Of a DNA stretch of 64,000 nt, positions 18,961 through 34,311 are shown piece by piece. The notes under the pieces were generated by a model, which ran no database searches, was not told where the DNA came from, and saw only the letters and a list, made by a program, of their open reading frames with translations. How positions within the stretch are numbered: position 1 is the stretch's first letter; each line of letters begins with the position of its first letter. Location of the stretch: the NCBI RefSeq assembly GCF_014851865.1, contig NZ_JACVAM010000005.1:124001-188000 (forward strand), in the 5' to 3' direction. Origin of the DNA: Pseudomonas sp. PDM16 (GTDB taxonomy: Bacteria; Pseudomonadota; Gammaproteobacteria; Pseudomonadales; Pseudomonadaceae). Position numbers and translations under genes: made by a program.

Positions 18961-19886
18961 TGGCCTTCGCCCTGGTCTGGTTGTGCTGGCTGCTGTTGCG
19001 ACTGGTTTGGTGCTGGCGGCGGGCTAGCGGCGGGCGGTGTGTGTTCGCGGCGGCGATGGGCGAGGACGAAGGACTCCAGGGCGTCGATGTCCTGCGCTTC
19101 GATCCGGTCGGCGCCACGCCAGGCAGCGTGGGCGCGGGCGCCGCGCAGCCACACCAGGTCGGCGCGCAGGCCGTCGACGGCGGCGGCGAAGCAGCGCTGG
19201 GCGATGGCGTCGAGGCTGGTGTCGTCCAGGGCGATTGCGCTCAGGCGCTGACGGGCATCCATGCAGCGCTGGCGCAGGGCGTCCTGCTCGTTCTGCCACT
19301 GGGCGCGGAAGGCTGCGGGGGCGTCGTCGAAGGCCAGGCGGCGGCGGATGATCTCGGCACGCTGGGCCGGCTCGGGTGTGCCGCCGAGTTGGACCTTGAG
19401 GCCGAAGCGGTCGAGCAGTTGCGGGCGCAGTTCGCCTTCCTCGGGGTTCATGGTGCCGATCAGCACGAAGCGCGCCGGGTGGCTGTGCGACAGGCCATCG
19501 CGCTCGATGTGGTTGATGCCGCTGGCGGCGACGTCGAGCAGCAGATCGACCAGATGGTCGGGCAGCAGGTTGACTTCGTCGACATAGAGCACGCCGCCGT
19601 GGGCATTGGCCAGCACGCCAGGGGAGAAGCGCACGCGGCCCTCGCCGAGCGCGGCATCCAGGTCGAGGGTGCCGACGATGCGTTCCTCGCTGGCGCCCAG
19701 CGGCAGGGTGACAAAGCGCCCGCCGTCTAGCAGGTCGGCCACGCCGCGCGCCAGGGTGGACTTGGCCATACCGCGCGGGCCCTCGATCAGCACGCCGCCC
19801 AGGGCTGGGTCGATGGCGGCCAGGCACAGCGCCAGCTTGAGCTCGTCGGCAGCCACCACGGCGGCCAGGGGGAAATGGGGCTGCAT
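18885..19886 (-). CDS. AAA+ chelatase motor subunit (ChlI/BchI-like)
   Basis: A 333-residue AAA+ ATPase. Walker A is IEGPRGMAKST (~34-44), Walker B GVLYVDEVNLLPDHL (~98), sensor 1 region LIGTMNPEEGELRPQLLDRFG. These are signatures of magnesium-chelatase I subunits. The C-terminal ~50 residues are a Pro/Gln-rich linker. Pseudomonads lack chlorophyll; the setting among cobF, cobN and cobW indicates a role in the cobaltochelatase, powering cobalt insertion by CobN together with the VWA protein. Confidence 0.88.
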   Translation of the reverse strand: MQPHFPLAAVVAADELKLALCLAAIDPALGGVLIEGPRGMAKSTLARGVADLLDGGRFVTLPLGASEERIVGTLDLDAALGEGRVRFSPGVLANAHGGVLYVDEVNLLPDHLVDLLLDVAASGINHIERDGLSHSHPARFVLIGTMNPEEGELRPQLLDRFGLKVQLGGTPEPAQRAEIIRRRLAFDDAPAAFRAQWQNEQDALRQRCMDARQRLSAIALDDTSLDAIAQRCFAAAVDGLRADLVWLRGARAHAAWRGADRIEAQDIDALESFVLAHRRREHTPPAASPPPAPNQSQQQPAQPDQGEGQWGALPPQAVAVGERREPPAWPKKP

Positions 19887-19903
19887 GGCGTTACCTCAAG
19901 TGG

Positions 19904-20044
19904 CGAACCTGTTTACGAGCTTCTGGATTAGAGCCAGACAAGGCAAAAGTGGCCGAGGAAGCGCAATGTACAAGTAGTACATGAGCATTCCGAGGCCGCT
20001 TTTAACGCCGTATGGCCGACAGCCAGGAGGTCGTAAGCAGGTTC
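19904..20044. repeat. Palindromic 141-bp element, copy B
   Basis: The best-preserved copy. Terminal inverted repeats of 22 bases are GAACCTGTTTACGAGCTTCTGG at the left and its near-complement at 20023-20044. The halves continue to pair through AAAAGTGGCCGAGG / CCGAGGCCGCTTTT to an apex TGTAC-AAGTA-GTACA, so the whole element can fold into one long hairpin. No coding capacity; lies between the chlI start and the first aromatic leader ORF. Confidence 0.85.
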
Positions 20045-20105
20045 CAAGGGTTGAAAGGGGGCGGGTTGATCGGTTAGCGTGGCAACCATCGTTTTGGAGA
20101 TCAGC

Positions 20106-20234
20106 ATGTCGTTTCGTCCTTCCCTGAACCGCCTCGTTCGCTCCGCCGCTGTCGGCGTGGCTGGTGTGTGCGCGCAGGTCGAGGCCGTCGCTTATTTCTT
20201 TTATGGGTATTGGTTTAGCCAGCGGCGCGCCTGA
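20106..20234 (+). CDS. Aromatic-rich leader peptide 1 (attenuator)
   Basis: A 42-codon ORF with GGAG six bases before its ATG. It has a basic, Ala/Val-rich start, then near its end the run YFFYGYWFS, seven aromatic residues in nine (three Tyr, three Phe, one Trp), then QRRA and stop. A GC-rich hairpin (20224-20249) overlaps its end and a strong terminator follows at 20284. This is the textbook layout of a leader peptide that couples aromatic aminoacyl-tRNA supply to read-through into the DAHP synthase gene downstream. Function is inferred from layout. Confidence 0.75.
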   Translation: MSFRPSLNRLVRSAAVGVAGVCAQVEAVAYFFYGYWFSQRRA

Positions 20235-20249
20235 TACCCCACAGGCGCC
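20224..20249 (+). promoter_or_regulatory. Pause-like hairpin of the first attenuator
   Basis: GGCG-CG-CCTG pairs with CAGGCGCC (two-base bulge) around ATACCCCA, at the stop codon of leader peptide 1. Its position corresponds to the early pause hairpin in ribosome-mediated attenuators. Confidence 0.45.
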
Positions 20250-20283
20250 CCAGAGCAAAGGGTCGCCACCAGCCAGTTTCACG

Positions 20284-20322
20284 AAACCCCGGTCGGCCAC
20301 CCGACCGGGGTTTTTGTTTTTT
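20284..20322 (+). terminator. Attenuator terminator before DAHP synthase
   Basis: Perfect 13-bp stem AAACCCCGGTCGG / CCGACCGGGGTTT with a CCAC loop, then TTGTTTTTT. It is 49 bases after the stop of leader peptide 1 and 320 bases before the aroG-type start, so it would end transcription unless countered. Confidence 0.9.
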
Positions 20323-20352
20323 CGGCCCACAAGGCCAACAACCAGCGCCTGT

Positions 20353-20475
20353 CGCTGGATGAGCGAGCTAGAGCCAGGCAAGGCGGCGGCCGGTGAGGAA
20401 GCGCAGTGTACGAGTGGTACATGAGCATTCCGAACCAACGCCAACGCAGCCTGGCCGACGCGCAGCCATTCAGCG
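20353..20475. repeat. Palindromic element, copy C
   Basis: Diverged relative of the 19904-20044 element: shares GAGCCAGGCAAGGC, GAGGAAGCGCAGTGTACGAGTGGTACATGAGCATTCCG with apex TGTACGAGTGGTACA, and CAGCCTGGCCGACGCGCAGCC. Ends (CGCTGGATG.. / ..CCATTCAGCG) are complementary. It lies between the first attenuator terminator and the second aromatic leader ORF. Confidence 0.75.
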
Positions 20476-20501
20476 CAGGTGAGAACACAGAGGATCGAAA
20501 C

Positions 20502-20603
20502 ATGACCGCTTACACCGCCTATTACCGCAGCTACCGCAACTCCGCCTGGCGATTTAGCAGCGCTGCCGCGCACCACCGAGATTCCAGTCGAACACCCAGA
20601 TAG
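20502..20603 (+). CDS. Tyrosine-rich leader peptide 2
   Basis: A 33-codon ORF with AGAGGA seven bases before the ATG. It begins MTAYTAYYRSYRNSAWRF: four Tyr codons within ten, then a Trp and a Phe. It ends 45 bases before the DAHP synthase ATG. A small hairpin (GCGTGG-CATGAGA-CCACGC, 20612-20630) sits between, just upstream of the aroG-type ribosome site; no U-run follows, so if it regulates it may act on translation. Role is inferred from composition and position. Confidence 0.6.
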   Translation: MTAYTAYYRSYRNSAWRFSSAAAHHRDSSRTPR

Positions 20604-20648
20604 CGCGCCGCGCGTGGCATGAGACCACGCCGGGCGAGGACCACCGCC

Positions 20649-21722
20649 ATGAATGCTTCCGTTACCGCTCTGCGCGCACAAGCCGTGCCGCCATCCACCA
20701 CTCGCCGCCGCGCAACGCCGCTGCCGAGCCCCTCCGATCTGCGCCAGCGCCTGCCGCTGTCCGCCGCTCTTGCCAGTCAGGTACAGACCCAGCGCGAGGC
20801 CATCCGCGCCGTGCTCGACGGCTCCGACCCGCGCCTGCTGGTCGTCGTCGGCCCCTGTTCCCTGCACGATCCGATTTCCGCCCTCGAATACGCCGACCGC
20901 CTGGCCGCACTGGCCCCCGAGGTGAGCGACCAGCTGCTGCTGGTGATGCGTGCCTACGTCGAGAAACCACGCACCACCATCGGCTGGAAGGGCCTGGTCT
21001 ATGACCCGCAGCTGGACGGCAGCGGCGACATGGCCGGCGGCCTGGAACTGTCGCGCCGGCTGATGCTGGCCATGCTCGAACGCGGCCTGCCAGTGGCCAC
21101 CGAACTGCTGCAACCGCTGGTGGCCGGTTACTTCGACGACCTGCTGGGCTGGGCCGCCATCGGCGCGCGTACCAGCGAATCGCAGGTGCACCGCGAGCTG
21201 GTCAGCGGCCTGGATGTGCCGGTAGGCTTCAAGAACGGTACCGATGGCAGCCTGTCGATTGCCTGCGACGCCATGCGCTCGGCGGCTCACCCGCACCAGC
21301 ACTTCGGCGTGGACGGCCTGGGTCGCCCGGCCTTGGTCGAGACCGACGGCAACCCGGACACCCACCTGGTGCTGCGCGGCGGCCACGGCGGGCCGAACCA
21401 TGATGCGGCCAGCGTGGCCGTGGCGCGGGCGAGCCTGGAGAAGCAGGGCATTGCCGCACGCATCATGGTCGACTGCAGTCACGCCAACAGCGGCAAGAAC
21501 CCGCTGCGCCAGCCGGCGGTGCTGCGCGACGTGCTCGACCAGCGCCTGGCCGGCGACGCCAGCCTGCGCGGGGTGATGCTGGAGAGTCATCTGTTCGATG
21601 GTTGCCAGCCGTTGTCCGCCGAACTGCGCTACGGCGTGTCGATCACCGATGGCTGCCTGGGCTGGAGCGGCACCGAGGCGATGCTGCGCGAGGCGGCCGA
21701 GCGGCTGCGGGTGGGGCGCTGA
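20649..21722 (+). CDS. 3-deoxy-7-phosphoheptulonate synthase (DAHP synthase, class I)
   Basis: A 357-residue enzyme for the first step of the shikimate pathway, condensing PEP and erythrose-4-phosphate. Recognisable blocks are VVVGPCSLHDP, MRAYVEKPRTTIGWKG, GARTSESQVHRELVSGL, VGFKNGTDG and MVDCSHANSGKNP, with metal and substrate ligands intact. It is of the AroF/G/H type. The two leader ORFs upstream suggest control by aromatic amino acids. It interrupts a cobalamin region, facing cobN with a 5-base gap. Confidence 0.94.
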   Translation: MNASVTALRAQAVPPSTTRRRATPLPSPSDLRQRLPLSAALASQVQTQREAIRAVLDGSDPRLLVVVGPCSLHDPISALEYADRLAALAPEVSDQLLLVMRAYVEKPRTTIGWKGLVYDPQLDGSGDMAGGLELSRRLMLAMLERGLPVATELLQPLVAGYFDDLLGWAAIGARTSESQVHRELVSGLDVPVGFKNGTDGSLSIACDAMRSAAHPHQHFGVDGLGRPALVETDGNPDTHLVLRGGHGGPNHDAASVAVARASLEKQGIAARIMVDCSHANSGKNPLRQPAVLRDVLDQRLAGDASLRGVMLESHLFDGCQPLSAELRYGVSITDGCLGWSGTEAMLREAAERLRVGR

Positions 21723-21727
21723 GGGCA

Positions 21728-24700
21728 TCAGGACTCCTCCGCATCCAGCAGCAGGTTTTCCAGCGCCGCCTGGTACTCGCCGGGCTGCTGCCAGAGGCCG
21801 CGCTGCTGGGCCTCCAGCAGGCGTTCGAGCATGTCCTGCAGGGCGCCGGGGTTGTGCTGCTGGATGAAGTCGCGGGTGTCCTTGTCCAGCAGGTAGGCAT
21901 CGGCCAGCAGGGCGTACTGGTGGTCGTCGACCAGCTCGCTGGTGGCGTCGAAGCCGAACAGGTAGTCGACCGTGGCGGCCAGCTCGAAGGCGCCCTTGTA
22001 GCCGTGGCGCTTCATTCCGGCGATCCACTTGGGGTTTACCGCGCGGGCGCGCACCACGCGGCCGAGTTCTTCCTTGAGCGTGCGGATGCGTGGATTGTCC
22101 GGCTGGCTGCTGTCGCCGAAGTAGCTGGCGGCCTTGGCGCCGCGTAGGGTCTCGACTGCCGCCAGCATGCCGCCCTGGAACTGGTAGTAGTCGTTGGAAT
22201 CGAGGATGTCGTGCTCGCGGTTGTCCTGGTTGTGCAGCACCGCCTGTAGCTGCTGCAAGCGTTCGGCGAACTGCGCGCGAGCCGGCAGGCCCTCGGCGCC
22301 CTGGCCGTAGGCGTAACCGCCCCAGTTCAGGTACACCTCGGCCAGGTCCGCGCGGGTCTGCCACAGGCGTTCTTCCACCGCGTTCTGGATGCCGGCGCCA
22401 TAGGCGCCCGGCTTGGCGCCGAAGATGCGCCAGCCGGCTTGGCGCCGTGCCTCGACCGGGTCTAGCCCCTGGTCCTGATGGCTCAGGGTCTCCTGCCAGA
22501 CACGCGCGGCCAGCGGGTTCTTATCTTCCGGCTCGTCCAGCTCGGCCACCGCCTGCACAGCCGTATCGAACAGGCGGATCAGGTTGGCGAAGGCGTCGCG
22601 GAAGAAGCCGGACACGCGCAGAGTCACGTCCACCCTTGGGCGGCCAAGTTGTTCCAGTGGCAGCACCTCGATGCGCTCGACTCGCTGGCTGCCGGGCTGC
22701 CATACCGGGCGCACGCCGAGCAGGGCCAGGGCCTGGGCGATGTCGTCGCCACCGGTGCGCATGGTCGCCGTGCCCCACACCGACAGGCCCAGGCGCTGCA
22801 GATGCTCGCCCTCGTCCTGCAGGTGGCGTTCGAGCAGGCGCTCGGCGCTCTGCACGCCGATGCGCCAGGCGGTGGGCGTGGGCAGGTGGCGCACGTCCAC
22901 CGAATAGAAGTTGCGACCGGTGGGTAGCACGTCCAGGCGCCCGCGACTCGGTGCGCCACTCGGCCCCGGCGGTACGAAACGGCCTTTAAGCGCGGCGAGC
23001 AGGCCGTTCATTTCGGCGCCACCGCAGGCGTCCAGCAGCGGGGCGATATGGCTGCGCAGCTCGTTCAGGACCTCGGCGCTGGCCGGGCCAGGGGCTGAGG
23101 ATTCGAGCTGTTCGATCAGCTGCAGAGCCAGCAGCTCCAGGCGCTCGCGGGTATCGCCACGGCTGCGCCAGGGCTCATCGCTGAGTGCTTGCAGGCAATC
23201 CGGGCGCGGGCCGTCCCAGGGCTCGGCCGGCTCGCCGCCGAGCGGGTCGAAGTCCAGCTCAAGGTCCTGGGCAAGGGCGCGTAGCAGGCTGGCGTGCCGG
23301 CCATGGCCGTCGCCGCGCGGGATGCGTACCAGCGACAGCAGAGTGTCGCGGCGCAGGCGCCCGCTCGGCGACTCGCCGAAGCAGTGCAGGCCGTCGCGGA
23401 TCTGCGACTCCTTGAGGTCGCACAGGTAGGCGTCCAGCTGCGGCAGCCAGCTGTCTGGGTCGTCGTTGACCTGCAGGCCCAGCTCGCGGTCGAGGCTGGC
23501 CTCGCGCACCTTGCGCTGGATCTCGCTGCGCAGCTCCAGGGCGCGGCGCGGGTCGAGCTGGCTGGCCTCGTAGTACTCGTCGGCCAGACGCTCCAGGTCG
23601 CGCAGCGGGCCGTAGCTCTCGGCGCGGGTCAGCGGCGGCATCAAATGATCGAGAATCACCGCCTGGGTGCGGCGCTTGGCCTGGGCGCCCTCGCCGGGGT
23701 CGTTGACGATAAAGGGGTAGAGGTTGGGCAGCGGGCCGAGGATCGCGCTCGGCCAGCAGGCCTCGGACAGGCCGACGCTCTTGCCCGGCAGCCACTCCAG
23801 GTTGCCGTGCTTGCCGACATGGATCAGCGCGTCGGCGGCGAACGCCGTGCGCAGCCAGCAGTAGAAGGCCAGGTAGCCATGTGGCGGCACCAGGTCCGGG
23901 TCGTGGTACACCGCCGCGGCGTCCAGCTGGTAGCCGCGCGCCGGCTGGATGCCGACGAAGGTCAGGCCGAAGCGCAGGCCGGCGATCATCAGGCGACCGC
24001 TGCGGTACATCGGGTCCTGCTCGGGTGGGCCCCAGCGCTCCAGCACGTCGCGCTGGTTGGCCGCGGGCAGGCTGGCGAACCAGCGCCGGTAGTCGTCCAG
24101 CGCCAGGCTCTGGGCGCAGGGGCGCTGATCGAGGTTGTCCAGATCGTTGGTCACGCCGCCGAGCAGCTGGTGGATCAGAGCGGTACCGTCGTTCGGCAGG
24201 CTGTCGGTCGGGTAACCCTGCTGCTGCAGGGCGCGCAGGATATTCAGCGCGGCAGCCGGGGTGTCCAGGCCGACGCCGTTGCCGATGCGGCCGTCGCGGG
24301 TCGGGTAGTTGGCCAGGATCAGCGCGACGCGCTTGTCGGCGTTGGCCTTGGCCGCAAGCCGAGTCCAGCGCAGGGCCAGCTCGGCGACGAAGTCCATACC
24401 CGGCAGGTGTGGGCGGTAGCGCACCACATCGCTCTGGCTGCGCTCGCTGCGTGCGGCCACGCCCTTGAAGCTGATCGGCCGGGTGATCAGGCGGCCGTCC
24501 AGTTCGGGCAGGGCGATGTGCATGGCCAGGTCGCGGGGGCCCAGGCCCTGGGCGCTGGCCTGCCATTGCTCCTCGCTATCGAGGGCGCAGAGTGCCTGCA
24601 GCACCGGCACGTCGCGGCGGAATGGCCGTTCCTGCGGCGATTCCGGGTTGGACTGGGCGAAGCCGGTAGTGTTGAGGATCACCGCCGCCTCGGTCTCGTC

Positions 24701-26516: not shown

Positions 26517-26627
26517 GGCAGCCCCGGAAGCGTCGTGAAATGGACGGACGGGCAGGGCGGGGCACGCGCGGACGAGCGAGGGCCGAACACCACCGGATCA
26601 CCCCGCCCGGTTGTCGAAACATTTGCG

Positions 26628-26890
26628 AGGCAGGTCTCCTGGCTTACGGCGTGAGCCCAAAAACCTTTTACGATTTCGCCGCTTGGGCTGGCGAAATCGT
26701 AAGAGGTTCGGGCTCGATCCCTCACCTTCCCGCCCTACAGGGCAGTGGCATTTCGAAGAATCTCGTCCGTTCACAGTTGCGGGGGCAGCCAGGGCTTGAA
26801 AGACCCTGTTCCCTCTTAGCTTCTTCGGCTGGCGAAGAAGAACCTCGGAAAGGGCGCAAGGCTACGCAGTGCCTGGGGTACGGTCAACCT
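26628..26890 (-). promoter_or_regulatory. Cobalamin riboswitch upstream of cobW-cobN
   Basis: Read on the minus strand: AAGAGGGAAC, then the B12 box GGCTGCCCCCGCAACTGTGAA (complement of 26769-26790), a GCCACTG block, GGGAAGG, and the closing AAGCCAGGAGACCTGCC at 26629-26646. A 63-base hairpin (26653-26715) with a 19-bp stem is inserted before the closing element. The 5' boundary is approximate. Cobalamin binding should lower cobW-cobN expression. Confidence 0.9.
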
Positions 26891-26935
26891 CGCGGTTGAC
26901 GCTGGGCGGGGCTTCGTGATGTTCTAGAAAAGCTG

Positions 26936-27131
26936 TTTCAGGTGCCTCTCGCCGCCGTGCGCGAGGTGAAACGGGAAGCCGGTGGGCCCTTCTCCATGCA
27001 TGGAGTGGGCGAGTCCGGCGCTGCCCCCGCAACGGTAAGCGATCGACGGGTCCTCAATGCCACTGTGCCTCGTGCATGGGAAGGCCGACCCGGTTCCTGC
27101 AAAGGCGTCGCAAGCCCGGAGACCGGCCTGA
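26936..27131 (+). promoter_or_regulatory. Cobalamin riboswitch upstream of cbtB-cbtA-cobE-cobM
   Basis: Shows CAGGTGCC at the start, AACGGGAAGCCGGTG, the B12 box GGCGCTGCCCCCGCAACGGTAAG, TGCCACTGTG, TGGGAAGG and the closing GCCCGGAGACCGGCCTG. All core blocks of the class are in order. It lies ~195 bases before the cbtB start and only ~45 bases from the 5' side of the oppositely oriented riboswitch. Confidence 0.93.
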
Positions 27132-27326
27132 ATCTTCGTTAGAACCCGCTTGGACGCCTCGTGAGCCAGAGCCTGCCGTTATTCCGCAGAGCTGGCGCGC
27201 AGCAGACGTCGAACGGGCTCGTTGGCAACCCGCGGTGGGCGGGCGCATGCCGGTTTATGGCCCTGGATGGGTCATTTCCTCGCTGCGACCTTCTACCGGA
27301 ATACCAATCCCTGGAAGGTGCTCATC

Positions 27327-33859: not shown

Positions 33860-33974
33860 GGGATTCTCCTTTGCTCGATTGTTCTGCTGTGAGCCCTCTG
33901 GTTCCTGTGGGTTCGGCCGATCTGCCGGGCGGTGCGATTGACCGAGGCATGAGCTGGCCCTAAGCTTCGCGCCT

Positions 33975-34166
33975 GCTTCAGGTGCCCCGACGCGACGCGT
34001 CCGTGGGTGAAACAGGGAAGCCGGTGCATTCGTTACGAAGATTCCGGCGCTGCCCCCGCAACGGTAGGTGAGGAAATGGGTCGCTTGATGCCACTGTGTT
34101 ACGGCACGGGAAGGCGCGATCCACGGGCTGCAAGGCCTTGCTCACGAGCCCGGAGACCGGCCTGTC
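33975..34166 (+). promoter_or_regulatory. Cobalamin riboswitch upstream of cobO
   Basis: Blocks in order: TTCAGGTGCC, AACAGGGAAGCCGGTG, B12 box GGCGCTGCCCCCGCAACGGTAGG, TGCCACTGTG, ACGGGAAGG, closing GCCCGGAGACCGGCCTG. The sequence strongly resembles the 26936-27131 riboswitch. The ~145 bases from its end to the cobO ATG hold the expression platform; no strong U-tailed terminator is evident, suggesting translational control. Nothing else is seen in the 33860-34311 gap. Confidence 0.93.
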
Positions 34167-34311
34167 GCGATCCACGGCAGTGCGGCGGGCTCTGCGGTTG
34201 CGGCCCCCTCGGGCCTGGCCGTTTCTTTCCTCGTTCTGTCCTTGTTTCTGTTCGTGTGCCCGCCAACCGGGTGCGCAGGGCGCTCTGGCGCCGGCAAAGA
34301 GGAGTCCGAAC

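Follow-up and report, generated by a model that had tools for sequence, protein, structure and literature searches.

Tandem aromatic leader ORFs before a DAHP synthase gene in Pseudomonas and a possible second stage of supply sensing

DAHP synthase governs the flow of carbon into all of the aromatic amino acids. How it is controlled is of importance both for natural products and for Pseudomonas strains engineered to produce aromatics. In a stretch of 64,000 nucleotides from Pseudomonas sp. PDM16 (the "window"), a DAHP synthase gene of the aroFGH type (ATG at 20649; TIGR00034, 427.4 bits, cut-off 173.2) is preceded by two short open reading frames containing aromatic codons (Table 1). The locus raises the question of what a second leader of this kind might contribute when the first is already followed by a terminator.

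Two successive aromatic-codon leaders had been described here in a first-pass annotation, which named failure of the second ORF to recur in related genomes as the outcome that would count against it. The pair proved to be real and conserved. Orthologous loci were chosen by protein similarity alone (the best 80 of 590, 79 of them with upstream sequence), and leader 2 is present in 75 of these 79, the four Salinicola loci being without it. In an enlarged set of 175 loci, which includes some genomes twice and, like the pseudoknot counts given below, is biased toward the leader-2 core because the exact core was the selection rule, 173 loci have an aromatic cluster 5' of leader 2 (a loose pattern, applied with no test for a Shine-Dalgarno sequence, SD) and 170 have a U-tailed terminator there. 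Comparison of the upstream regions shows that both ORFs keep aromatic codons across Pseudomonas, which the annotation had proposed as a check.

Table 1. Features of the leader region and the DAHP synthase gene in the window
Feature	Position	Strand	Basis
SD of leader 1, GGAGA	20096..20100	+	read from sequence
Leader 1 ORF, aromatic run YFFYGYWF near 3' end	20106..20234	+	ORF list and sequence
Rfam P15 (RF00627) match: leader 1 end, hairpins, terminator stem	20192..20311	+	covariance-model scan
Intrinsic terminator, 13-bp stem and U tail	20284..20322	+	sequence, terminator scan
Dispersed repeat copy between terminator and leader 2, outside the system	20360..20470	+	genome search, relatives
SD of leader 2, AGAGGA	20489..20494	+	read from sequence
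Leader 2 ORF, 33 codons, four Tyr codons 5' of core Trp	20502..20603	+	ORF list, orthologue comparison
Conserved core TGG-CGA-TTT-AGC (Trp-Arg-Phe-Ser)	20547..20558	+	sequence and genome search
Second in-frame CGA codon, 4 codons 5' of leader-2 stop	20589..20591	+	sequence and locus comparison
Predicted hairpin, leader-2 stop to SD of gene	20604..20636	+	folding; weak in window (z -0.5), stronger in many relatives
SD of DAHP synthase gene, GAGGA	20636..20640	+	read from sequence
DAHP synthase gene, aroFGH type	20649..21722	+	ORF, profile match

The first leader and its terminator

Leader 1 extends from the ATG at 20106 to the stop codon at 20232-20234 and encodes the peptide MSFRPSLNRLVRSAAVGVAGVCAQVEAVAYFFYGYWFSQRRA. 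Its SD and terminator had been correctly recognized in the first-pass annotation, which gave the peptide as ending in YFFYGYWFS and thereby omitted the last four residues, the C-terminal end being AYFFYGYWFSQRRA. The arms of the terminator (20284-20296 and 20301-20313) form a perfect 13-bp stem, which is followed by TTTTTGTTTTTT. Taken by itself, the terminator scan is no better than chance, as it finds one terminator in the region 19500-22200 and shuffled sequences predict 1.7.

The leaders of the trp, his and phe operons of enterobacteria are leader-peptide transcription attenuators. Leader 1 is built alike, having an ORF with an SD and a run of end-product codons, several hairpins, and an intrinsic, U-tailed terminator 3' of the ORF. 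It differs from the enterobacterial attenuators in mixing Tyr, Phe and Trp codons, in preceding the entry gene of the common pathway and in being followed, after the terminator, by a second leader. If leader 1 follows the general scheme of such attenuators, the position of a ribosome on the Tyr-Phe-Phe-Tyr-Gly-Tyr-Trp-Phe run would choose between the hairpins and the terminator, and transcription would go beyond 20322 when aromatic aminoacyl-tRNA is scarce. Equilibrium folding of 65 loci gave no ribosome-dependent loss of the terminator.

The segment 20192-20311 of the window is a full-length match to the Rfam family P15 (RF00627), scoring 96.5 bits against a gathering threshold of 70, and the hairpin segments of P15 are conserved. 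Of 298 genomes from the genus, 269 have a P15 match. Rfam types P15 as 'Gene' (sRNA), an entry that does not include leader 2, and a passage of PMC2375449 names it as one of the sRNAs that Livny et al. detected. At the present locus the same RNA would form the 3' portion of an attenuator with a leader peptide, situated ahead of DAHP synthase. Of the 30 P15 loci with the best scores, 29 have both a DAHP synthase signature and the leader-2 core on the 3' side of P15, and this location suggests a leader rather than an independent small RNA. For the paralogous DAHP synthase gene of the same genome (L002, 52% identity), 500 nt were examined and no short leader with aromatic codons was seen; the ORFs with aromatic codons found there belong to, or overlap, the gene upstream.

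The second leader and its codons

Leader 2 begins with the ATG at 20502, ends with the stop codon at 20601-20603 and encodes MTAYTAYYRSYRNSAWRFSSAAAHHRDSSRTPR. The annotation had taken it for a reader mainly of Tyr. This agrees with the codon usage of 126 distinct leader-2 5' peptides, where Tyr accounts for 21.1% of the codons in frame and for 0.4% and 1.7% in the other frames, but it leaves out that the aromatic part almost always ends in Trp-CGA-Phe. Phe accounts for 4.6% of the codons in frame and 1.1-2.4% in the other frames, and each of the 126 peptides has at least two Tyr, Phe or Trp codons (median 4) before the core Trp. The start of leader 2 is situated 18 to 72 nt from the core with the frame open between them, the in-frame position being a condition of the search. 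As in leaders of the rtpLP type, the regulatory codons lie in an ORF that has its own SD. To judge from these comparisons, leader 2 is no chance ORF.

The core codons TGG-CGA-TTT (Trp-Arg-Phe) are nearly invariant at the nucleotide level despite the rarity of CGA and TTT. In the DAHP synthase gene of the window and the neighbouring large ORF, CGA is used for one of 137 Arg codons and TTT for one of 35 Phe codons; in the DAHP synthase genes of the loci, the 2365 Arg codons of Pseudomonas include 68 CGA, and the 2216 of Halomonadaceae, where leader 2 is found too, include 92. The sequence TGGCGATTTASC occurs once in the genome of the window, at the leader-2 core. Among the 79 orthologues, the exact core TGGCGATTTA is present in 74, within an open leader that has an SD-like sequence; it is present as a variant in L063 (CGC for CGA) and is absent from the four Salinicola loci, and this protein-based count is the less biased of the figures given here. 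Two further loci were found by means of an RNA model. In L176 the core TTT is replaced by TAT, another aromatic codon, and there is no second CGA; in L196 the core is without a Trp codon. These two and the four Salinicola loci fell out, for want of the exact core, of a set that kept 94 of 100 loci.

The 175 loci contain 163 distinct core-to-start sequences, and in all 163 a further in-frame CGA follows the core. Among the leader-2 Arg codons 3' of the core, CGA makes up 62 of 101 in the short forms defined below, 57 of 157 in long-form Pseudomonas and 131 of 387 in Halomonadaceae. The last CGA is placed 4 codons before the leader-2 stop in 62 of 81 Pseudomonas sequences and 7-8 codons before it in 55 of 82 Halomonadaceae sequences.

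The Salinicola loci (L067-L069, L071) have leader 1 and its terminator, no leader 2, and a gene start soon after the terminator. Leader 2 is thus a separable module, because leader 1 exists there without it.

Long form, short form and the pseudoknot layout

The long form of leader 2, found in the P. putida group, the P. fluorescens group and Halomonadaceae, has an ungapped block of 63 nt that starts at the core. The block contains two interleaved stems, S1 of 8 bp and S2 of 6 bp, with constant loop lengths, which is the layout of an H-type pseudoknot; it is located inside leader 2, 14 nt 3' of the core CGA. The short form occurs in the window, P. citronellolis, Stutzerimonas stutzeri, Halopseudomonas and others, and the clade of the window is without this layout.

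The stems were assessed on 113 distinct sequences, a set from which 29 loci without S2 at the fixed distance had been dropped and in which identical blocks were merged. The dropped loci are mostly short form, together with L064, L078, L079, L130 and L182. Of the 1582 cells of S1 and S2, 96.6% pair, and 6 of the 14 pairs and 55 cells are changed on both sides. Among 500 shuffles, one has as many as 6 such pairs, and none equals the real alignment in pairing, in the 55 cells or in the covariation score; these statistics ignore the relatedness of the sequences. Upon sliding the alignment by 1-3 columns, the pairing falls to at most 49.7% and the score is lower, yet the slide by +3 has 60 cells changed on both sides. 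The outer S1 pair is seen as CG, GU, UG, AU, GC and UA. Support for S1 is greater than for S2, which hardly varies (two pairs, with one cell each changed on both sides), and one S1 position is unpaired in 36 of the 113 sequences, chiefly from Pseudomonas. The smaller set A1 (47 sequences, with L064, L078 and L079 included) has 91.8% of its cells paired and 15 changed on both sides. Covariation thus supports S1 and S2 as putative stems; the layout can be read as H-type, and the stems may either coexist or alternate.

Of 151 genomes in family f33, taken as Halomonadaceae, 94 have the long-form block, once per genome. Under strict filters, 20 of 391 genomes in the order have it, as does one of 370 in the class, which also belongs to f33. 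The RNA model behind these searches is blind to the short form and leaves the genome of the window itself unmatched.

By eye, the stems of L064, L078 and L079 seem to be compensated, and in L078 (Cobetia), at about 2279-2348, both stems are apparently swapped for other complementary sequences with slightly different spacing. The junction of S2 and S1 (columns 42-48 of alignment A2) reads C(A/G)CCUCC and has a nearly invariant U that is outside both stems. This motif, which resembles the 3' end of 16S rRNA, might pair with Shine-Dalgarno sequences.

From the second leader to the gene

The position of the leader-2 stop relative to the gene differs between the families. Of 87 Halomonadaceae loci, 52 have the stop 2-8 nt ahead of the gene start and another 10 have it overlapping the start, so that a stop at the ribosome-binding site of the gene, as in the rtpLP type of leader, is seen in 62 of the 87. 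It is not seen in the window, where the stop is 45 nt 5' of the gene start, or elsewhere in Pseudomonas, where the distance is 28-50 nt (37-48 nt in 42 of 42 short-form loci, 41-50 nt in 44 of 46 long-form loci). Stops in the shifted frames are either at the core or widely scattered, although some cluster among close relatives (for example, at -70 in the +1 frame of 14 of 42 short-form loci). A placed stop in frame 0 and scattered stops in the shifted frames favor translation in frame 0 to the end and disfavor frameshifting. The distance of 14 nt between the CGA codon and the H-type layout does resemble the spacing of frameshift stimulators, which would fit a reading of the core and pseudoknot as a programmed frameshift site. 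Nevertheless, the core has no slippery heptamer, and programmed frameshifting, being highly improbable, was rejected.

Many Pseudomonas loci have a predicted hairpin between the leader-2 stop and the SD of the gene. The stop-to-start tails of 88 distinct Pseudomonas sequences have a mean z of -1.9 against mononucleotide shuffles, with 66 below -1, and in 68 of 88 loci the predicted stem begins 15-18 nt from the last CGA. The hairpin of the window, with a z of -0.5, is no stabler than shuffles, and folding of 20480-20700 is no better than that of shuffles (z +1.08).

The annotation had called the second unit terminator-less, and the terminator scan of the window agrees, finding no U-tailed terminator between leader 2 and the gene. 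Because leader 2 is without a terminator, its output would probably be exerted through the start region of the gene. The preferred reading, to which about an even chance is given, is that the two leaders form a tandem sensor acting on transcription and then on translation, in which leader 2 interferes with the gene and stalling relieves the interference. In such a sensor, mRNAs that result from read-through would carry leader 2 with its good SD, its Tyr-rich codons and its Trp-CGA-Phe core. When charged tRNA is short, a ribosome would stall on leader 2 and leave the 3' part of leader 2 and the ribosome-binding site of the gene free. A ribosome that runs on would reach the second CGA and the stop, which would bring it beside or over the gene start in most Halomonadaceae and to the foot of the hairpin beside the SD of the gene in Pseudomonas; there, at the end of leader 2, it would interfere with initiation on the gene. 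In the long form the pseudoknot, 14 nt past the CGA, may serve as a brake that keeps the ribosome on the core. We infer that leader 2 is translated and senses supply, as well as the direction of its effect and the interference itself. Interference at the end of a leader has reportedly been described for rtpLP-rtpA, rtpLP being the leader peptide of the B. subtilis anti-TRAP operon. Against interference, a ribosome terminating on leader 2 in Pseudomonas would be too distant to cover the start codon directly, stop and start being mostly 37-50 nt apart.

A stop that adjoins a start is usually a sign of positive coupling, which would reverse the sign of the proposed interference. Ribosomes leaving leader 2 would then re-initiate at the gene start or unfold the hairpin that precedes the SD of the gene, the aromatic and CGA codons merely tuning their flow. 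The overlap or near-overlap of stop and start in the 62 Halomonadaceae loci is in keeping with this, as is the predicted hairpin of Pseudomonas, which begins a few nucleotides from the stop and would have to be opened by a terminating ribosome. However, coupling has the wrong sign for feedback, as starvation would lead to less enzyme, and it does not explain the aromatic codons. The gene also has SD-like sequences of its own (a script picked the gene starts and SDs of the 175 loci, the presence of an SD being partly a selection rule), and Salinicola manages without leader 2. Positive coupling is considered unlikely.

Translational attenuation of the erm/cat type senses antibiotics, and sequestration of the ribosome-binding site is the rule there. 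A terminator-less leader ORF before the gene is common to both systems, as would be a dependence of translation on stalling. For the present locus, sequestration would mean that the core RNA (GACUGGCGAUUU) pairs with the ribosome-binding site of the gene until stalling on Trp, Phe or Tyr codons frees it. In folds of short-form loci (L004-L006, L014 and L017) the core can pair with GCCAGUC/CGCCAG beside the gene start, and in several short-form relatives the modelled accessibility of the ribosome-binding site goes up on covering the core. Core and site were also compared with a background of 62 ribosome-binding regions, some of them belonging to tested orthologues. The best tenth was reached by 7 of the 21 distinct pairs from short forms, that of the window included, by 2 of the 34 from long-form Pseudomonas and by 6 of the 67 from Halomonadaceae. 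The mean SD accessibility of the short forms does not rise when the core is covered (0.56 to 0.52), and in the window the partner of the core is the arm of the hairpin next to the SD rather than the SD itself. Consensus folds of Halomonadaceae are without pairing of the ribosome-binding site, and no structure beyond the pseudoknot stems and weak flanking pairs was found in them. Pairing of a leader segment with the site of the gene is thus confined to a part of the short-form clade, and, unlike in erm/cat, sequestration is not general in the leader-2 family; it is quite unlikely to be the mechanism.

Modelling of 74 loci gave no consistent effect of the ribosome position on the accessibility of the ribosome-binding site. 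With the pseudoknot blocked, no consistent change of SD accessibility was found in models of 83 Halomonadaceae, 45 long-form and 38 short-form sequences, and the folding tests gave no switch common to all clades.

The want of a U-tailed terminator after leader 2 in the window is also what a second transcription attenuator dependent on Rho would produce, in which the position of the ribosome would set the access of Rho to the C-rich 3' part of leader 2. In relatives of P. fluorescens, the sequence 3' of the pseudoknot appears by eye to be C-rich and G-poor. However, stalling upstream would expose the C-rich stretch and lower expression in starvation, which is the wrong sign, and a role of Rho is very unlikely.

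The best precedent for the supposed second stage, by analogy, is the anti-TRAP (at) operon of B. subtilis, where translational control by ribosome stalling comes after a T-box, according to a passage of PMC11255114 citing Chen and Yanofsky (2003, 2004). The two systems would be alike in sensing an end product at the level of transcription and then of translation, the second time by stalling on a leader ORF. The present locus differs in having a leader peptide in place of the T-box, three amino acids, a pseudoknot and CGA codons, and in belonging to another phylum and another gene. No T-box was found in the window by an Rfam scan at gathering thresholds.

The annotation had also held that the double form is not a standard description. 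Leader 1 with its terminator is already catalogued as P15, but no account of a double leader before DAHP synthase was found in the literature, a search in which subscription papers were thinly covered and which is weak evidence of absence. The terms DAHP, aroF and P15 have no occurrences in the main text of PMC2965389, nor have aroF, PA1750, PA2843, P15 and aromatic in that of PMC8297930. Each component is thus of a known kind; what is new is the series of two leader peptides, presumably acting at different levels, and the pseudoknot layout in the frame of the second. If the tandem reading is true, one mRNA senses aromatic supply twice by leader peptides, first in transcription and then in translation, and P15, catalogued as an sRNA, becomes half of a tandem system.

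A more specific proposal, held only tentatively and rather doubtful, is that leader 2 represents a new translation-level amino acid sensor common to Pseudomonadaceae and Halomonadaceae. CGA codons about 14-18 nt before the pseudoknot and, in Pseudomonas, before a second hairpin would hold the ribosome, and the supply of aminoacyl-tRNA would set both its waiting point and the access to the DAHP synthase start, in series with the transcription attenuator. A pseudoknot layout in the frame of a leader, with a rare codon at a fixed spacing, poses a well-defined question on ribosome positioning.

The two units are set apart in the window by a dispersed repeat of about 105 bp, which has 24 matches in the genome of the window. 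Copies at 19929-19993 and 20360-20470 flank leader 1. Much of the interval between terminator and leader 2 in the window is taken up by the repeat, which is missing from close relatives. Terminator and core are 233 nt apart in the window and 89-98 nt apart in the close relatives L003 and L199-L203; in L003, which is near-identical, neither copy occurs within the stretch read. Since a repeat lies between the terminator and leader 2, the units need not adjoin, provided that the region works in this strain; the insertion is a natural experiment on the spacing of both units. A plasmid search gave no match. The reverse strand of the repeat (20333-20422) resembles Rfam sX9, with a score of 33.2 bits, below the gathering score of 44. 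The window also contains three cobalamin riboswitches, at 26612-26862 on the reverse strand and at 26923-27145 and 33963-34179 on the forward strand, the first two of which are divergent.
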